NCBI RefSeq assembly: GCF_900100945.1
Contig: NZ_FNCG01000012.1
Coordinates: forward strand, 1 to 64,000
Origin: Mucilaginibacter gossypii
GTDB taxonomy: Bacteria > Bacteroidota > Bacteroidia > Sphingobacteriales > Sphingobacteriaceae
Length of the DNA: 64,000 bases
Direction: 5' to 3'
Shown here one piece after another: positions 52,194 through 58,398 of the stretch (its first letter is position 1; every line of letters begins with the position of its first letter). The translations under genes were made by a program, and so were the position numbers. The notes beneath the pieces are model-generated. The model did no database searches, was not told where the DNA came from, and saw nothing but the letters and a program-made list of their open reading frames with translations.

Positions 52194-54002
52194 TTAAGAC
52201 GCATCCGGTTTATCGCCCCTTAATACTCTGAAACGTTTGCGGGCTTCGTTGATCCAGAGGCTGCCGGGATAATCAGTTATGATTTTTTGGTAGTAGTTCC
52301 TGGCAGTGGTTTTATCGTTCAACCTGTTTTCATAAATGTCGCCTAACATAAATACGGCATCATCGGCCCAAAGATCGGCGGGGTGCTCTTCGACAATTTT
52401 CTTTAATAAAGGTACCGCTCCGGCATAATCCTTCTGCTGGATCAGGATGCGAGATTTTGACATCATGATATCATCATCTAAAGCATTGTTCGGGAACTTT
52501 TTGCCAATACTGTCTAATATCATTACTGCCTTTTCGGGATTTTGAGCAAAAATCTGCAAATCGGCCCGGGCGTACACTTTAAGCGCCGCCCCGCTGCTAT
52601 CGGCAGCAAGATTATCCTGGATCAGCAACAATAGGTTAAGTGCATCGTTTGCTATTAATTGCGATGTAGCAACTTTCAGCACATCCAACTGTCCCTTTGC
52701 CCAGGTGAAATCTCCGGTATAATAAGCCATTTTAGCATTTCTGAATAAAGCATCCTGCCCGACGGCAGTAGCGGGGAAATCTTTCTCAACCTGGCTGTAA
52801 AGCAGGGTGGCTTCCCAGGGTTGGTTGTTAAGTAGGTAAATATCGCCTAAATCAAGCTTGCAATCGGCTAAAAGGTTTGGCCTGATATCATTTAACCTGG
52901 TAGTTTCTTCCAATAATTTTTGGGCGTCCTTAAGTTTGTGAAGCTTAAAAGCTTGCAGATTGGCCAGCTTCTGCATGGCAAAGGCGGTACTGCTGTTACG
53001 GCCAAATTCGGTGAGCAAGTCGTTATAGTCTTTTTCAAGTCCAAGCAAATCTTCGGGCAGGTATTTGCCCGATGTTACTTTCAGGTTTTTGGTGTTGATC
53101 AACTCAATCTTTGAGGGGATGTATAGTGACGATGTTTTCCCTTTGCTGATAATGTATTCATATCCGCGAATGGCTTCGTCATAAGCTTCATTGGCAATGA
53201 AGGTACGGCAGAGGTCATAGATGCTGTTACCATCGTCATTTTGTCTGCGGCTCAGGGCCAGTGCCTGGTTAAGGGCCAGATCAAATTCCTTTTGCTGCAG
53301 GTACTGCCAGGTAAGCAGATCGGCATAAATGGTTTGCTGCGGATCTTTCTGAATGCGTCTCAGTAAAGCTGTTTTAAGCATATCATAATCAGCGCTACCC
53401 TCGTATACATTTGAAAAAGCATTTTCGGCCTGGTTTATAAAATTGGGGTTTTGAGGTAAAAAGTTCAGGTATTCGTCGGTGAGGGATATTTTGTCGCGCT
53501 TAAAACGGTAAAGGTTAATAAGCTCATAAGTAAACATGTTATCATTTTTAAGCAGTTTCCGTCCTTGCTGAAAAATTTTGATTGCATAATCAATATTAGC
53601 GCTTTGGTAAAACTGGGATGCCAGGGCAGCTATTTCACCCTGGTCGGCCGGGAGGCTTTTGATCAGGTCGTCATAAATAGCGTCAGCTTTGGCCATATTG
53701 CCCCCCTGTGTATAAATATTACCCAGCATTATAGCATACTGGTGGTCATCAGGATGGCGGCGGATCAGTTTTTTGGTGATGCTTTCGGCTTCATCAAATT
53801 TTTTAAGGTTGAGCAGTGTATTTATGTATACACTGTAATAGTTCTCGTTGTTTTGCTTGTATAACTTTTGATAAATTTCGAGTGCTTTTTGCGGTTCGCC
53901 GTTAGCATTGTATTGCCTGGCCAGCAGCAGTTCATTGTCCTGTGCAAGCAGCCTGCCGCTAAAGCAAAAAGCAAGAATAATAACAATATATAAAGCCCTC
54001 AT
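52194..54002 (-). CDS. Large periplasmic TPR protein
   Basis: The protein has 602 residues with a signal peptide (RALYIVIILAFCFSGRLLAQ). At least ten TPR-like helix pairs follow (ARQYNANGEPQKALEIYQKL, YAIMLGNIYTQGGNMAKADA, ALFRNAKMAYYTGDFTWAKG, AVFMLGDIYENRLNDKTTAR). The last two resemble the YbgF/CpoB type. It may scaffold an envelope complex. The ATG at 54002 is placed at the signal peptide; one six codons earlier is possible. It diverges from the S9-like lipoprotein operon. Confidence 0.85.
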   Translation of the reverse strand: MRALYIVIILAFCFSGRLLAQDNELLLARQYNANGEPQKALEIYQKLYKQNNENYYSVYINTLLNLKKFDEAESITKKLIRRHPDDHQYAIMLGNIYTQGGNMAKADAIYDDLIKSLPADQGEIAALASQFYQSANIDYAIKIFQQGRKLLKNDNMFTYELINLYRFKRDKISLTDEYLNFLPQNPNFINQAENAFSNVYEGSADYDMLKTALLRRIQKDPQQTIYADLLTWQYLQQKEFDLALNQALALSRRQNDDGNSIYDLCRTFIANEAYDEAIRGYEYIISKGKTSSLYIPSKIELINTKNLKVTSGKYLPEDLLGLEKDYNDLLTEFGRNSSTAFAMQKLANLQAFKLHKLKDAQKLLEETTRLNDIRPNLLADCKLDLGDIYLLNNQPWEATLLYSQVEKDFPATAVGQDALFRNAKMAYYTGDFTWAKGQLDVLKVATSQLIANDALNLLLLIQDNLAADSSGAALKVYARADLQIFAQNPEKAVMILDSIGKKFPNNALDDDIMMSKSRILIQQKDYAGAVPLLKKIVEEHPADLWADDAVFMLGDIYENRLNDKTTARNYYQKIITDYPGSLWINEARKRFRVLRGDKPDAS

Positions 54003-54156
54003 CTGTTCAAAAATAATCAATTAATAGGATTGCTTAAGCCGGTTTGCCATATTATTTATATAACGGTATATAAGGGTAAAATTGTAGTGACATCTTGATA
54101 ACATCGAACTTATTTATCTAATTTGAGTACGTGAATAAAATGGGGTATTTGTAGCT

Positions 54157-56049
54157 ATGTTGAGCCGGGTCAGATTTTTTCTTATTGTGAGTTGCATTAT
54201 CGTCTTCTTTTCCTGCAACAGGAGTAAAGTAAGGCAGATACCTATTATTGACTTTTTTAAAACACCCGAAAGGAGCTTTTACCGAATTTCGCCCGATGGT
54301 AAATATGTATCATACCTTAAGCCATTTAAAGATAAGCAAAACATATTTATACAGTCATTAGCCGATGGTAAGGAACGAATGGTTACTCAATTTGAGGACT
54401 ATTCAATCAGAGGTGATTATTTTTGGACATACAATAACCAGCTTGTTTTTTCGCAGGATCTTATCGCTACCGATTCAGTTAAAATGTATGCTTTTGATGT
54501 GGCTACCAATAAAAGCCGGATTATATTATCATTCGGTAATGTGAGGATTGGCCTGGTTAACCGTAACCGGCAGCAGCCAGATATCATCACTATTAAGACC
54601 AATGAGCGAGATCCCGGCAATTTTGACGTTTATCGCCTTAATGTGAAAACCGGCGAAATGAAGACTTACCTGCTTAATCCGGGGAATATTACTGAATGGT
54701 TTGCAGATGCCGACGGCAGGATCAGGCTTGAAAGGGCATCAGACGGGGTTAACGAAACCATCTTATTCCGCCCCGATGAGGATAAGCCCTTTAAGCCTAT
54801 AATCGAAAATAATTTTAAGAATGCAGTAAGACCTATAGCATTTACAGGTATAAAAAATTATTTCTATGCGCTATCAAACGTAAACCGCGATAAGATGGCC
54901 CTGGTTGAGATTAATGCGGAAGATGGTAAAGAAGAGCGGACAATTTTTAGCTGCAGCAAAGCGGATATCACCAGTTTCGAATATTCAAAAAATAAACACC
55001 GGATAGAGTTTACCGGCTGGGACGAATCAATGCCGCGTAAGCATTTTCTTGCACCTGATGTTGAGCAGATGTACCAAACCATTCAGCAACAGCTTAAGGG
55101 TAATGAGATCAGGGTGGTTGACCGCGACAGCTCTGAGAATAAATTTATCCTCAACACTTATACCGACCGTAATCCCGGTTCATACTATCTTTTTGAAAAA
55201 AACAGTGGTAAGTTAACCAAGCTAAGCGATATCAACTCAAGCCTTGTACCTGCCGAATTATGCGCCATGAAACCTATATCATACCATGCGCGCGATGGCT
55301 TGCTGATTAATGGTTATTTAACCTTACCAAGGGGCGATAAAAATGAAAACTACCCTGTAGTAGTTATGCCGCACGATGGTCCATGGGGGCGTGATACCTG
55401 GGGATATGATGACCAGGTGCAGTTTTTAGCCAATCGTGGGTATGCCGTGTTCCAGGTTAATTACCGCGGATCAACAGGCTATGGCAAGGCCTTCCGAAGT
55501 GCGGGATATAAACAGGTAGGCGGCAAAATTCAGGATGATATTACCGATGGGGTACACTGGCTTATTGATACTAAAGTTGCAAACCCTAAAAAGATTGCCA
55601 TTTTTGGCGGGCGTTTTGGCGGTTTTTCAGCGCTTTATGGTGTGTCTTTTCATCCCGAGTTATATAGTTGTGCGGTGGTACAATACGGCCTCATTAACTT
55701 TTTTACCTATATCAAGGATGCGCCGCCGTTTGTTAAGCCTTATTTAAAAATGACTTACGAAATGGTTGGCAACCCCGAAACTGACGCAGATCAGTTGAGG
55801 GCTATATCGCCTGTTTTTCATACCGACAAAATTAAGGTACCTTTAATCATATTCCAGGGTGCCAAAGATCAGCGGGCTAATATCAGCGAGCTTAACCAGT
55901 TTGTACGCGAGCTGCGTAAACGTAACGTTGATGTGAAATATTTTTTAAAACCCAATGAACGTGCATATTTCAGGAGCGAACATAACCGTATGGAAATGTA
56001 TGCCGAAATAGAGAAGTTTTTGGATAAGAATATGCGGGTTAAACCATAA
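54157..56049 (+). CDS. S9-family prolyl-oligopeptidase-like lipoprotein, catalytically dead
   Basis: The protein has 630 residues. The lipobox VFFSC (Cys20) anchors it. A beta-propeller-like region (about 35-360) precedes a C-terminal alpha/beta-hydrolase domain (HDGPWGRDTWGYDDQVQFLA; YRGSTGYGKAFRSAG). The nucleophile elbow reads G-G-R-F-G-G (484-489), with Arg486 where active S9C enzymes have Ser. In the His loop, N-E-R-A-Y-F (600-605) replaces the usual D-E-G-H-G-F, so Ala603 stands for His. Asp571 in GAKDQR is kept. The codons are CGT (55612-55614) and GCA (55963-55965). The kinase gene starts 6 bp after its stop. Confidence 0.9.
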   Translation: MLSRVRFFLIVSCIIVFFSCNRSKVRQIPIIDFFKTPERSFYRISPDGKYVSYLKPFKDKQNIFIQSLADGKERMVTQFEDYSIRGDYFWTYNNQLVFSQDLIATDSVKMYAFDVATNKSRIILSFGNVRIGLVNRNRQQPDIITIKTNERDPGNFDVYRLNVKTGEMKTYLLNPGNITEWFADADGRIRLERASDGVNETILFRPDEDKPFKPIIENNFKNAVRPIAFTGIKNYFYALSNVNRDKMALVEINAEDGKEERTIFSCSKADITSFEYSKNKHRIEFTGWDESMPRKHFLAPDVEQMYQTIQQQLKGNEIRVVDRDSSENKFILNTYTDRNPGSYYLFEKNSGKLTKLSDINSSLVPAELCAMKPISYHARDGLLINGYLTLPRGDKNENYPVVVMPHDGPWGRDTWGYDDQVQFLANRGYAVFQVNYRGSTGYGKAFRSAGYKQVGGKIQDDITDGVHWLIDTKVANPKKIAIFGGRFGGFSALYGVSFHPELYSCAVVQYGLINFFTYIKDAPPFVKPYLKMTYEMVGNPETDADQLRAISPVFHTDKIKVPLIIFQGAKDQRANISELNQFVRELRKRNVDVKYFLKPNERAYFRSEHNRMEMYAEIEKFLDKNMRVKP

Positions 56050-56055
56050 GCCGAC

Positions 56056-57702
56056 ATGGCATTACAGAAAAACGCTTACCGGCAAAACTTTACGCTGATC
56101 ACCATTTTCCTGGTGTTCATTTCCATAACTTTCGTGGTAGCCCTGTTTATATCTTATAACCTCACCGCAAAGTATGTTGAAAATGAGTTTTCCTCAAAAA
56201 AGGTTGAGGTACTGGAACAAACCATTAAACCGTATTATGAGTTTTTTCAGAATAAAATCCCTGAAATAACCTCCTATCAGGGTTTTCTTGATTCGGCATC
56301 GGCAGGTAAATATGCGGCCTCTGTTTTTCATGATTATAATTTTGTGCGCCGGGTTATCTTTTATGATGCCCTCATTGGCGGCAAAACTACGATGACCGTA
56401 CGTAAAAATAATTTGAACATAGCTGCTAAGGCGGTTTATCAGTATTGGCACGTTAATGACAAGGTGTACGGGGCCGAGCAACGGAGAACAGTCAATGAAG
56501 ATGATTTCAGAGAGATGGCTATTAAATTAAGTAATTATATTGCCTTTTCAGATACATCACGAGTATCAAGTCAGGATGAACTTTTTAAAGCATTTTGGGA
56601 TGTGAAACCCGACAAGATCAGTTATACCAATGTTCTCAGGCGCGAGGATGTACGTATTTATCGTGACATGCAAATGCTCGGTAACAGCAAAGGGGCTTCA
56701 TACAAGCAAAACATGATGACCTTTTACCTCGACCCGTATCTGATCAAGGTGAAAAATACGCATCCCGAGCTGTACGAAAATGTATCCATTCAACCCGTAG
56801 TATATGACCCTATTGACAGTGAGGGCGATAAACTGATAACCGAGGTGTCATTACCAGTGGCTTTTTCTGATTATAAGCTGTTCTTTAGTTCGGCACAGGG
56901 TTATTTAACAGCCGAAATTAACCGCCGCTTTATGCCTATCGGAGCTATTGTATTATTAATGACCCTGTTTTTAATGCTGATAGGCTGGCTTATATACCGT
57001 AATCTGAATGTGAACATGAAACTGTTCAAGCTTCAGTATGATTTTATCAACAACTTTACCCACGAGTTTAAAACACCGGTAAGCGTAATCAAAATAGCCG
57101 GTTCAAATTTGCGTGGCGATGGCGAACTTACCGAAAGGCAGCGCCGTCATTATGGCAAAATATTGGATGAGGAAGCTGATAAGCTCAACGAGCTCATGAA
57201 CAAGCTGCTTTCCTTTACGCAGATTGAAAATAAATCCATTACTTTAAAAGAGGAAGAGATTGATATAGAGAATTTTATTAGCCGGTATATTGATACCTTT
57301 AAAATAAAGTACGCTGATTTTAATATTAAATTTAAAATCAACAGGGTTGAAACTTTTTATACTGATCCTGTATTATTAGGGAGTGTTTTTCAAAACCTTA
57401 TCGAAAATGCATACAAGTATTCGCACCCTCAGCAAAAGGAGTTGTTCATCAATATTTCACAGGAAAAGCGCAATATTGTTTTTTCGTTTGCAGACAAGGG
57501 GATAGGGATACCAAAAAATGAACTGAATAACGTTTTTAAGAAGTTTTACAGAATAGAAAACCAATACAATCAAAACGGGAGCGTTGGCCTGGGTTTGGCA
57601 TTTTGTAAAGAACTGGTTAATTTTATGAACGGCGAAATAACCGTTTACAGTAAGGTTAACGAAGGTTCGGAATTTATAGTTACGCTTCCATACGAAAATT
57701 AA
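56056..57702 (+). CDS. Sensor histidine kinase, partner of the S9-like lipoprotein
   Basis: The protein has 548 residues. TM1 lies near 12-34 and TM2 near 293-315, leaving about 255 periplasmic residues that match no sensor fold I know (FLDSASAGKYAASVFHDYNF, AVYQYWHVNDKVYGAEQRR, VYDPIDSEGDKLITEVSLP). HisKA His336 lies in DFINNFTHEFKTPVSVIKIA. HATPase: NLIENAYKYSH (N-box), FADKGIGIP and GSVGLGLAFCKEL. It follows the lipoprotein gene by 6 bp and precedes its regulator by 3 bp, so the three form one operon. It is distinct from the RprX-like kinase at 7600-9411. Confidence 0.92.
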   Translation: MALQKNAYRQNFTLITIFLVFISITFVVALFISYNLTAKYVENEFSSKKVEVLEQTIKPYYEFFQNKIPEITSYQGFLDSASAGKYAASVFHDYNFVRRVIFYDALIGGKTTMTVRKNNLNIAAKAVYQYWHVNDKVYGAEQRRTVNEDDFREMAIKLSNYIAFSDTSRVSSQDELFKAFWDVKPDKISYTNVLRREDVRIYRDMQMLGNSKGASYKQNMMTFYLDPYLIKVKNTHPELYENVSIQPVVYDPIDSEGDKLITEVSLPVAFSDYKLFFSSAQGYLTAEINRRFMPIGAIVLLMTLFLMLIGWLIYRNLNVNMKLFKLQYDFINNFTHEFKTPVSVIKIAGSNLRGDGELTERQRRHYGKILDEEADKLNELMNKLLSFTQIENKSITLKEEEIDIENFISRYIDTFKIKYADFNIKFKINRVETFYTDPVLLGSVFQNLIENAYKYSHPQQKELFINISQEKRNIVFSFADKGIGIPKNELNNVFKKFYRIENQYNQNGSVGLGLAFCKELVNFMNGEITVYSKVNEGSEFIVTLPYEN

Positions 57703-57705
57703 GAT

Positions 57706-58398
57706 ATGAACAAAGAAATTAAAATTGCGCTGGTTGAAGATGACGAGAACCTGCGTTTCCTGGTTTCAGAGCGTTTGCAATCAGAGGGGTACAAGGTACT
57801 GGAAGCCGGTAATGGCAATGAAGCCGAAACCATGATATTGGCTGAGCAGCCTGATATTGTACTGTTAGACTGGATGCTGCCCGGCAAACCGGGCTCGGAG
57901 GTTTGCGGTAATATCCGCGAAAAAGGGTTCGATAAACTCATCATCATGATGACCGCTAAAGCCCAGGATGTTGACAAGATAGAAGCCTATAACTTTGGGG
58001 TATCTGACTATATCACCAAACCATATAACATGGACGTATTGGTGGCGCTGATTGAGAACAAAATCAAGTTTTCTCTTAACAGCGAAAAACCCGAATCGTA
58101 CCGTTTTGCCAACATGGAACACCTGCCTAACACGCACCTCCTCATCCGCGATGGCCGTAAGATAGAGCTAACTATCCTCGAAAACAGGATCCTGCTTTAT
58201 TTCCTCAAAAACAAAAACAAGGTTATCAACCGCGAAGAATTAATGATGGAAGTTTGGGGCTACAACGCCGATGTAAATACCCGCACCCTTGATATGCACA
58301 TCGTTCGCCTGCGTAAAAAGATTGAAACCAATGCCGATTCGCCGCAATACTTACAAACTGTAAGGGGGATAGGGTATAAGTTTGTTTATAATCAGTAG
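57706..58398 (+). CDS. OmpR-family response regulator of the S9/kinase operon
   Basis: The protein has 230 residues. Receiver: acidic pair E11-D12-D13, phospho-acceptor Asp55 (IVLLDWMLPG), Thr83 and Lys105 in YITKP. The winged-helix output domain has ENRILLYFLKNKNKVINREE, NTRTLDMHIVRLRKKIETN and VRGIGYKFVYNQ. It starts 3 bp after the kinase stop. The targets are unknown; the operon's own upstream region (54003-54156) would be the first place to look. A REP-like repeat follows 13 bp after the stop. Confidence 0.95.
   Translation: MNKEIKIALVEDDENLRFLVSERLQSEGYKVLEAGNGNEAETMILAEQPDIVLLDWMLPGKPGSEVCGNIREKGFDKLIIMMTAKAQDVDKIEAYNFGVSDYITKPYNMDVLVALIENKIKFSLNSEKPESYRFANMEHLPNTHLLIRDGRKIELTILENRILLYFLKNKNKVINREELMMEVWGYNADVNTRTLDMHIVRLRKKIETNADSPQYLQTVRGIGYKFVYNQ

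Follow-up and report, generated by a model that had tools for sequence, protein, structure and literature searches.

A peptidase-like lipoprotein with a degenerate catalytic triad, encoded with a histidine kinase and a response regulator in Sphingobacteriaceae

Lipoproteins that act on histidine kinases have been described in Actinobacteria and in Pseudomonadota, and these are the closest parallels of the three-gene operon of Mucilaginibacter gossypii analysed here, which encodes a lipoprotein related to S9 peptidases, a sensor histidine kinase and a response regulator, and which lies in positions 1 to 64,000 of contig NZ_FNCG01000012.1 (assembly GCF_900100945.1; this whole stretch of 64,000 nucleotides is referred to as the window). 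In the MtrAB-LpqB system of Actinobacteria, the lipoprotein LpqB is reported to modulate the kinase MtrB (PMC5487470), and in the QseG-QseE-QseF system of Pseudomonadota the lipoprotein QseG is reported to bind and activate the kinase QseE (PMC12691602). The operon of M. gossypii resembles MtrAB-LpqB in that the lipoprotein gene shares an operon with the kinase and regulator genes, but it occurs in a different phylum, and the gene order of the actinobacterial system is mtrA-mtrB-lpqB. A lipoprotein encoded together with the kinase, which is one feature of an accessory-lipoprotein two-component system of the LpqB or QseG kind, is present at this locus. LpqB is not known to be related to S9 peptidases, and QseG is not known to be a relative of any enzyme. 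In Vibrio, the periplasmic binding protein LuxP is the co-receptor of LuxQ, a hybrid kinase with a tandem-PAS (dCache-type) sensor; LuxP is a relative of sugar-binding proteins and not a peptidase.

S9 proteins that have lost the nucleophile are known from animals. In the S9B proteins DPP6 and DPP10 the nucleophilic serine is replaced, by Asp in DPP6 and by Gly in DPP10, and DPP10 (Ser to Gly) is reported to modulate Kv4 channels (PMC4350108). The operon protein shares with this pair the S9 propeller-hydrolase architecture with a replaced nucleophile, and the animal proteins are reported modulators of a membrane protein; it differs from them in that their partner is a potassium channel, they are of the S9B and not the S9C type, DPP10 retains His and Asp, and both are single-pass type II membrane proteins, whereas the operon protein is a lipoprotein. 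With the S9C acylaminoacyl peptidases (structure 5l8s and its kin) it shares the fold and most of the conserved positions, but these peptidases have an active triad, and we know of none encoded in a kinase operon. The HaeSR system of Porphyromonas was considered because its description names a prolyl oligopeptidase, and was set aside as a parallel, since that gene is one of those regulated and lies elsewhere in the genome (PMC3764172). Among the best-ranked matches in the open-access literature, no paper was found to describe an S9 peptidase-like lipoprotein that works together with a histidine kinase, in agreement with the first-pass annotation of this DNA, which knew of no described system of such composition.

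The three genes of the operon are:
54157..56049, + strand: S9-type pseudo-peptidase lipoprotein, 630 amino acids (open reading frame, Pfam, alignment to 5l8s)
56056..57702, + strand: sensor histidine kinase, 548 amino acids (open reading frame, Pfam; H, N and G boxes)
57706..58398, + strand: OmpR/PhoB-type response regulator, 230 amino acids (open reading frame, Pfam)

The gaps between them are 6 base pairs (bp; S9-kinase) and 3 bp (kinase-regulator), and it is this spacing which suggests that the three genes are co-transcribed. The S9 protein matches Pfam Peptidase_S9 (PF00326) with 141.8 bits (cut-off 22.6), and its AF2 model (mean pLDDT 92.6) has acylaminoacyl peptidase 5l8s as its best Foldseek match (TM-score 0.80 by query length, E 1.8e-44). 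Its profile match and predicted fold place it in the prolyl oligopeptidase (S9) family of proteins; it does not belong to the Dpp5 dipeptidyl-peptidases, as its score against model NF053518 is 84.9 bits and the curated cut-off is 900. The domains and the codons of the triad positions, which were read directly and by alignment to 5l8s, are as follows.

Residues about 40-366 of the S9 protein: beta-propeller region
Residues about 370-628 of the S9 protein: alpha/beta-hydrolase domain
55612..55614, + strand: Arg486 codon, at the nucleophile (Ser) position
55867..55869, + strand: Asp571 codon, the retained triad acid
55963..55965, + strand: Ala603 codon, at the catalytic His position

In the phmmer alignment the nucleophile elbow is GGRFGGF (R486) in the S9 protein and GGSYGGY in 5l8s, the acid motif is GAKDQRA (D571) compared with GAKDPRV, and the histidine motif is NERAYFR (A603) compared with DEGHGFS. 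Judged from this alignment, the protein does not have the Ser-Asp-His triad of an active S9 peptidase. Six other S9-like proteins found in the same genome each have a serine in a GxSxGG motif (motif match, unaligned). The loss is confined to the operon gene within this genome and is common to several species, and it is therefore not a sequencing error.

The comparison with relatives is based on 179 S9 rows including M. gossypii, of which 177 are distinct; L124 and L130, which carry the label g1, duplicate L239 and L238 (g3), and these two duplicates are absent from the trees. The rows were picked to span all 22 genera with a match, where g1-g25 are genus codes in Sphingobacteriaceae, and 89 of them are labelled g1, so that percentages of rows are not percentages of genomes. 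Outside the family, 20 loci were fetched and 18 aligned, the longer proteins of L373 and L374 being left out. The alignment also bears on the lipid anchor, which is encoded by the following codon.

54214..54216, + strand: lipobox Cys20 codon (Cys in 178/179 aligned rows)

This cysteine is followed by NRSKVRQI, which contains no acidic run. In Bacteroidota an acidic run after the lipobox cysteine marks surface-exposed lipoproteins. Among the 178 rows, the six residues after the cysteine include at least three D/E in one row and at least two K/R in 117. Following this rule, the missing acidic run argues for an S9 lipoprotein that faces the periplasm and would be able to meet the kinase sensor. 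The tight operon, the lipobox Cys20, Arg486 and Ala603 at the Ser and His positions, and the retained Asp571 had all been proposed in the first-pass annotation, and each is confirmed, the triad positions by the very alignment to an S9C peptidase that it had recommended.

The S9 gene is widespread in the family, being found in 290 of 301 Sphingobacteriaceae genomes (280 of the 286 near-complete ones) and in 22 of 25 genera; in Mucilaginibacter it is present in 142 of 149 genomes, including all 117 near-complete ones. The survey of gene order that had been suggested as a check gives the order S9, kinase, regulator, on the same strand, in 172/172 loci with all three genes, with a median S9-kinase gap of 8 bp. 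Six of the 178 rows other than that of the window are left out of this count, as the contig ends before the last gene; the only g23 locus is among them, and hence 21 genera and not 22 are covered. The kinase sensor domain is found in 150 of 151 family genomes, and G211, the sole genome without it, is also without the S9 gene. When 285 genomes from the other families of the class were searched with a profile (63 rows), this sensor was found in none; G401, a marginal match outside the family in a single-sequence search of the class (E 9.8e-4, 79 residues), was not confirmed by the profile and is rejected. The S9 homologues fetched from other families (32-44% identity) are not in this operon; two of the 20 outside loci (L359, L376) have a different kinase-regulator pair within about 5 kb, and L369 has a weak regulator-like match, as compared with the M. 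gossypii proteins. The S9 operon and this kinase go together in the family.

The triad is degenerate in most of these proteins. In 80 loci, mostly of Mucilaginibacter, the nucleophile position is G in 61, R in 14, S in four and W in one; Asp is present in 80/80, and His at position 603 in none (78 other letters, one gap, one contig-end cut). Over all rows, the triad is incomplete in 154, and 11 genera have no row in which it is intact; the letters seen are G, S, R, W or N at the nucleophile position and 15 different ones at the His position, and Asp571 is kept in 175/179. Intermediate states occur, in which Ser is lost with His kept (eight rows) or Ser is kept with His lost (five rows), and several dead genera show an eroded or partially deleted His loop. 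Outside the family, the triad is intact in 17 of the 18 aligned relatives, and within the family it is retained by five active-type paralogues (L190, L192, L194, L197, L198). On the assumption that the triad-keeping forms are active enzymes, the history of the loss was reconstructed from a tree of 115 operon S9 rows, rooted with four active paralogues and with the three triad columns removed. Here the dead rows form 13 separate groups inside an ancestrally active clade, and the number is still 13 when branches with support below 80 are collapsed and dead siblings are grouped; a tree of the kinase and regulator (99 rows) gives 12 losses. These counts assume no regain, and the minimum numbers of changes with regain allowed are also 13 and 12; the trees come from quick searches, have SH-aLRT as their sole measure of support, and contain several weak backbone forks. 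As read from these phylogenies, the triad was lost about a dozen separate times, and the dead state is repeatedly derived and not ancestral. The rows with Ser and without His are L075, L077, L085, L086 and L255, and L075 and L085 each have a Gly row as their neighbour in the tree, which would fit a renewed arrival of Ser at a position that varies freely.

The dead proteins are maintained by purifying selection, as indicated by the ratio of nonsynonymous to synonymous substitution rates (dN/dS). In 12 unsaturated pairs this ratio is 0.010-0.065 for the dead S9 gene and 0.019-0.065 for the kinase of the same pairs, and it is 0.052-0.083 in the three usable pairs of triad-keeping S9 genes. The dead S9 gene is more constrained than the kinase in the four pairs with M. 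gossypii (0.010-0.037 compared with 0.028-0.058), and slightly less constrained in some other dead pairs. The synonymous rate is near saturation in many pairs, and no value was obtained for two pairs of dead and two of triad-keeping genes. For 96 of the 101 columns that are conserved both in 17 outside rows (L376 excluded) and in the 25 triad-keeping rows, at least 60% of the 87 dead rows have the conserved residue, and for 83 columns at least 80% do. The five columns below 60% are Ser486, His603, Tyr509, Tyr525 and Arg573, and the latter three probably lie round the active site, a placement that we take from their sequence position and from knowledge of the family. With so few of the 101 columns lost, and the Ser and His of the triad belonging to these few, the loss is directed at catalysis. 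The pattern of substitution indicates that the dead S9 proteins are not decaying and are kept by selection for a job other than catalysis, in keeping with the earlier proposal of a lipoprotein that is catalytically dead, by its sequence, and has a function other than cleavage.

The kinase contains Pfam HisKA and HATPase_c domains, with H, N and G box motifs conserved in at least 90% of 63 rows, and the regulator contains Response_reg and Trans_reg_C; by these domains the pair is a two-component system of the OmpR/PhoB type. In a comparison that covered the best 25 of 78 and of 96 matched NCBIfam families for the two proteins, none of the named two-component models (PnpS, PhoR/PhoB, RprY, PorY, MtrA/MtrB and others) scored above its curated cut-off, the best among the matches listed being PnpS for the kinase (167.2 of 400) and PhoB for the regulator (190.7 of 296.2). 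The periplasmic part of the kinase is the remaining feature of this gene.

56152..56943, + strand: kinase periplasmic sensor domain, residues 33-296, predicted dCache-like (AF2 pLDDT 89.8)

A dCache sensor is built of a long N-terminal helix that carries two PAS-like modules, and the kinase domain is predicted to resemble such sensors. Its model aligns with the dCache domains of TlpA, TlpC, Mlp24 and vpHK1S with VIA-align Z of about 10, over about 180-210 residues with an rmsd of 3.7-4.8; the Foldseek matches are modest (best E 1.3e-3, TM-score below 0.5), and no Pfam Cache family matches the sensor at E 0.001.

It is somewhat more probable than not (roughly 0.55) that the S9 protein is a recruited peptidase with a non-catalytic job, acting in the periplasm as an accessory protein of the kinase or as its co-receptor. 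In an ancestor of the Sphingobacteriaceae, the gene of an S9C-type, acylaminoacyl-peptidase-like lipoprotein would have joined those of the kinase and regulator as the first gene of their operon. If the selected job needs no catalysis, Ser and His could be lost repeatedly, with the fold, the lipid anchor and the operon being retained. The membrane-anchored protein may bind a ligand, one candidate being a peptide in the former active-site cavity, or may report the state of the envelope, and it would tune the dCache-like sensor of the neighbouring kinase and thereby set the phosphorylation of the regulator. This scheme is a proposal as regards contact between the S9 protein and the kinase, the nature of the ligand, the direction of the effect and the set of regulated genes. 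The simplest reading is that of an accessory protein or co-receptor, because the anchor is conserved without an acidic run, the linkage is invariable and selection persists without catalysis. More tentatively, at somewhat less than even odds, a peptidase may have been captured as a sensing subunit and may have shed catalysis about a dozen times under strong selection, giving an enzyme-to-receptor series in which triad-keeping, half-lost and fully dead forms face the same kinase, together with a genus that has the kinase without the S9 protein. Each ingredient has a precedent, and to our knowledge the combination and the dozen parallel losses have none. As a rule, a pseudoenzyme is seen as a single end point. 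In this one conserved signalling operon, forms of the protein that keep the triad, lack Ser, lack His or are eroded all occur, and it becomes possible to test directly, in harmless soil bacteria, in what order and at what cost catalysis is lost and how an enzyme becomes a signalling partner. The three genes would also provide a first component list for a family-wide, apparently uncharacterised sensory system of soil- and plant-associated Bacteroidota.

Several observations weigh against the proposed role of the S9 protein. The remaining 25 of the 179 rows, from 11 genera, have Ser-Asp-His intact; these include all sampled rows of nine genera (four in g6, three in g15, and one each in g8, g13, g17, g22, g23, g24 and g25), and in the mixed genera the triad is kept in 3/7 g18 rows and in 8/12 g21 rows. 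Genus g11, with reduced genomes of 1.3-2.0 Mb, has the kinase in five of its six genomes and no S9 gene in any of the six at E 1e-50 (nor, for four of them, at 1e-30), and in the five fetched g11 loci (L310-L314) the tetratricopeptide repeat (TPR) gene, which elsewhere lies upstream of the S9 gene, directly faces the kinase and regulator genes with no S9 gene between. As g11 retains the kinase and regulator, the kinase can work or persist without the S9 protein, which is an accessory part and not a strict requirement. Furthermore, dCache domains usually bind small ligands directly, without a partner. Nor does co-divergence single out the two proteins once neighbouring genes serve as controls. 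Without such a control (99 rows), the mirror-tree partial r is 0.61 for the whole S9 protein and the sensor, and 0.47 for propeller and sensor compared with 0.18 for hydrolase and sensor. With the TPR protein as control (67 rows) the propeller-sensor value is 0.34 (jackknife 0.14-0.43), and with TPR and metallophosphoesterase controls (24 rows) it is 0.53. When each genus is represented by a single row, the value is 0.27 in the TPR set compared with 0.40 for sensor and TPR, and 0.26 in the TPR and metallophosphoesterase set compared with 0.44 for sensor and metallophosphoesterase. As it does not discriminate, co-divergence was dropped as proof of contact between the S9 protein and the kinase. 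The first-pass annotation had regarded active homologues beside the same kinase as counting against its proposal of a sensor lipoprotein, which would bind peptides or peptidoglycan fragments and signal through the periplasmic domain of the kinase, and such homologues, judged by their triad, do exist; the loss of Ser and His is shared across species but is not universal, and it is repeated and not ancestral. The sensor idea remains the best reading when corrected in two respects, namely that the dead state is derived and that the kinase persists without the protein.

The dead lipoprotein could instead be an envelope scaffold or binding protein that is independent of the kinase and merely co-transcribed with it, for example if the regulator autocontrols the operon. 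This would agree with the retention of the kinase and regulator in g11, with the co-divergence values and with the divergent TPR neighbour, which hints at an envelope module, but the invariable adjacency in the 172 complete loci of 21 genera speaks against it, as do the homologues in other families, which lie outside this operon and keep the triad in 17 of 18 aligned cases; we consider it unlikely, although it deserves to be kept in mind. A distinctly less probable idea is that the protein regulates the supply of peptides, the active forms trimming peptides that the dCache domain senses and the dead forms binding and withholding them; activity would then be tuned, and the protein itself would not be a receptor subunit. 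The occurrence of triad-keeping orthologues before the same kinase, the conserved frame that dead rows mostly retain and the resemblance of the sensor to a small-ligand dCache domain fit this idea; the erosion or partial deletion of the His loop in several dead genera and the loss of R573 and two tyrosines along with the triad do not.

It is highly improbable that the S9 protein is still active and hydrolyses through other residues. Although Asp571 is kept in 175/179 rows and Ser is present at 486 in four of 80 loci, the five letters at the nucleophile and 15 at the His position are not the pattern of a re-built site, and no column is Ser, Cys or His in at least 80% of the 87 dead rows while being so in less than 50% of the 17 outside rows. 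Least probable of all is ongoing decay, in which the S9 gene would be a relic that is leaving the operon. The absence of the gene in g11, the interrupted S9 frame of the g16 locus L193 and a single in-frame stop in a few of the matches listed point that way, and against them stand the dN/dS values of the dead genes (0.010-0.065), the retention of the gene in 117/117 near-complete Mucilaginibacter genomes and the occurrence of just one internal stop (G138) among the Mucilaginibacter matches listed. For Mucilaginibacter, decay is refuted by this retention together with the low dN/dS.

Upstream of the operon, two further features are seen in the window.

52194..54020, - strand: exported TPR protein gene, divergent, a frequent neighbour of the operon (TPR families, Pfam)
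54075..54092, + strand: conserved 18-bp block GGTAAAATTGTAGTGACA in the TPR-S9 intergenic region, a candidate promoter or regulator site

Of the 176 rows whose upstream DNA is long enough, 140 have the divergent TPR gene. The C-terminal part of its product resembles YbgF/YfiO, with scores below the NCBIfam cut-offs, and the protein may be part of the same envelope module as the operon. Every base of the GGTAAAATTGTAGTGACA block is 82-100% conserved (89 rows, including the two duplicate g3 loci), related forms occur in some other genera, and its 17-base core has one exact copy in the genome. With up to three mismatches, there are 16 forward and 18 reverse matches in the genome, compared with 30 and 23 for a reversed-pattern control; as the matches are no commoner than those of the reversed pattern, no regulon can be called. 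A scan for sigma-70-type sites gave nine, fewer than the mean of 13.3 in shuffled sequences, and is uninformative. The block may act on the operon, on the TPR gene or on the two together.

In another family, locus L376:4995-9270 (genome G506) encodes a dead S9 lipoprotein with GAFFGGF and NEGRGM motifs (Phe at the Ser and Arg at the His position), whose gene is divergent from those of an RprY-like regulator (295.7 bits, below the RprY cut-off of 370) and a kinase. Here a dead S9 protein and a kinase may have come together independently, which is a lead only, from a single genome of its family on a long branch. At L193:4995-8548 (g16), the operon S9 frame is in two pieces in different frames, possibly by an assembly error, and the kinase and regulator match over their full length. 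At L196:3953-7258, an S9 homologue outside the operon is in two pieces that flank an open reading frame of 434 amino acids, perhaps an inserted element.

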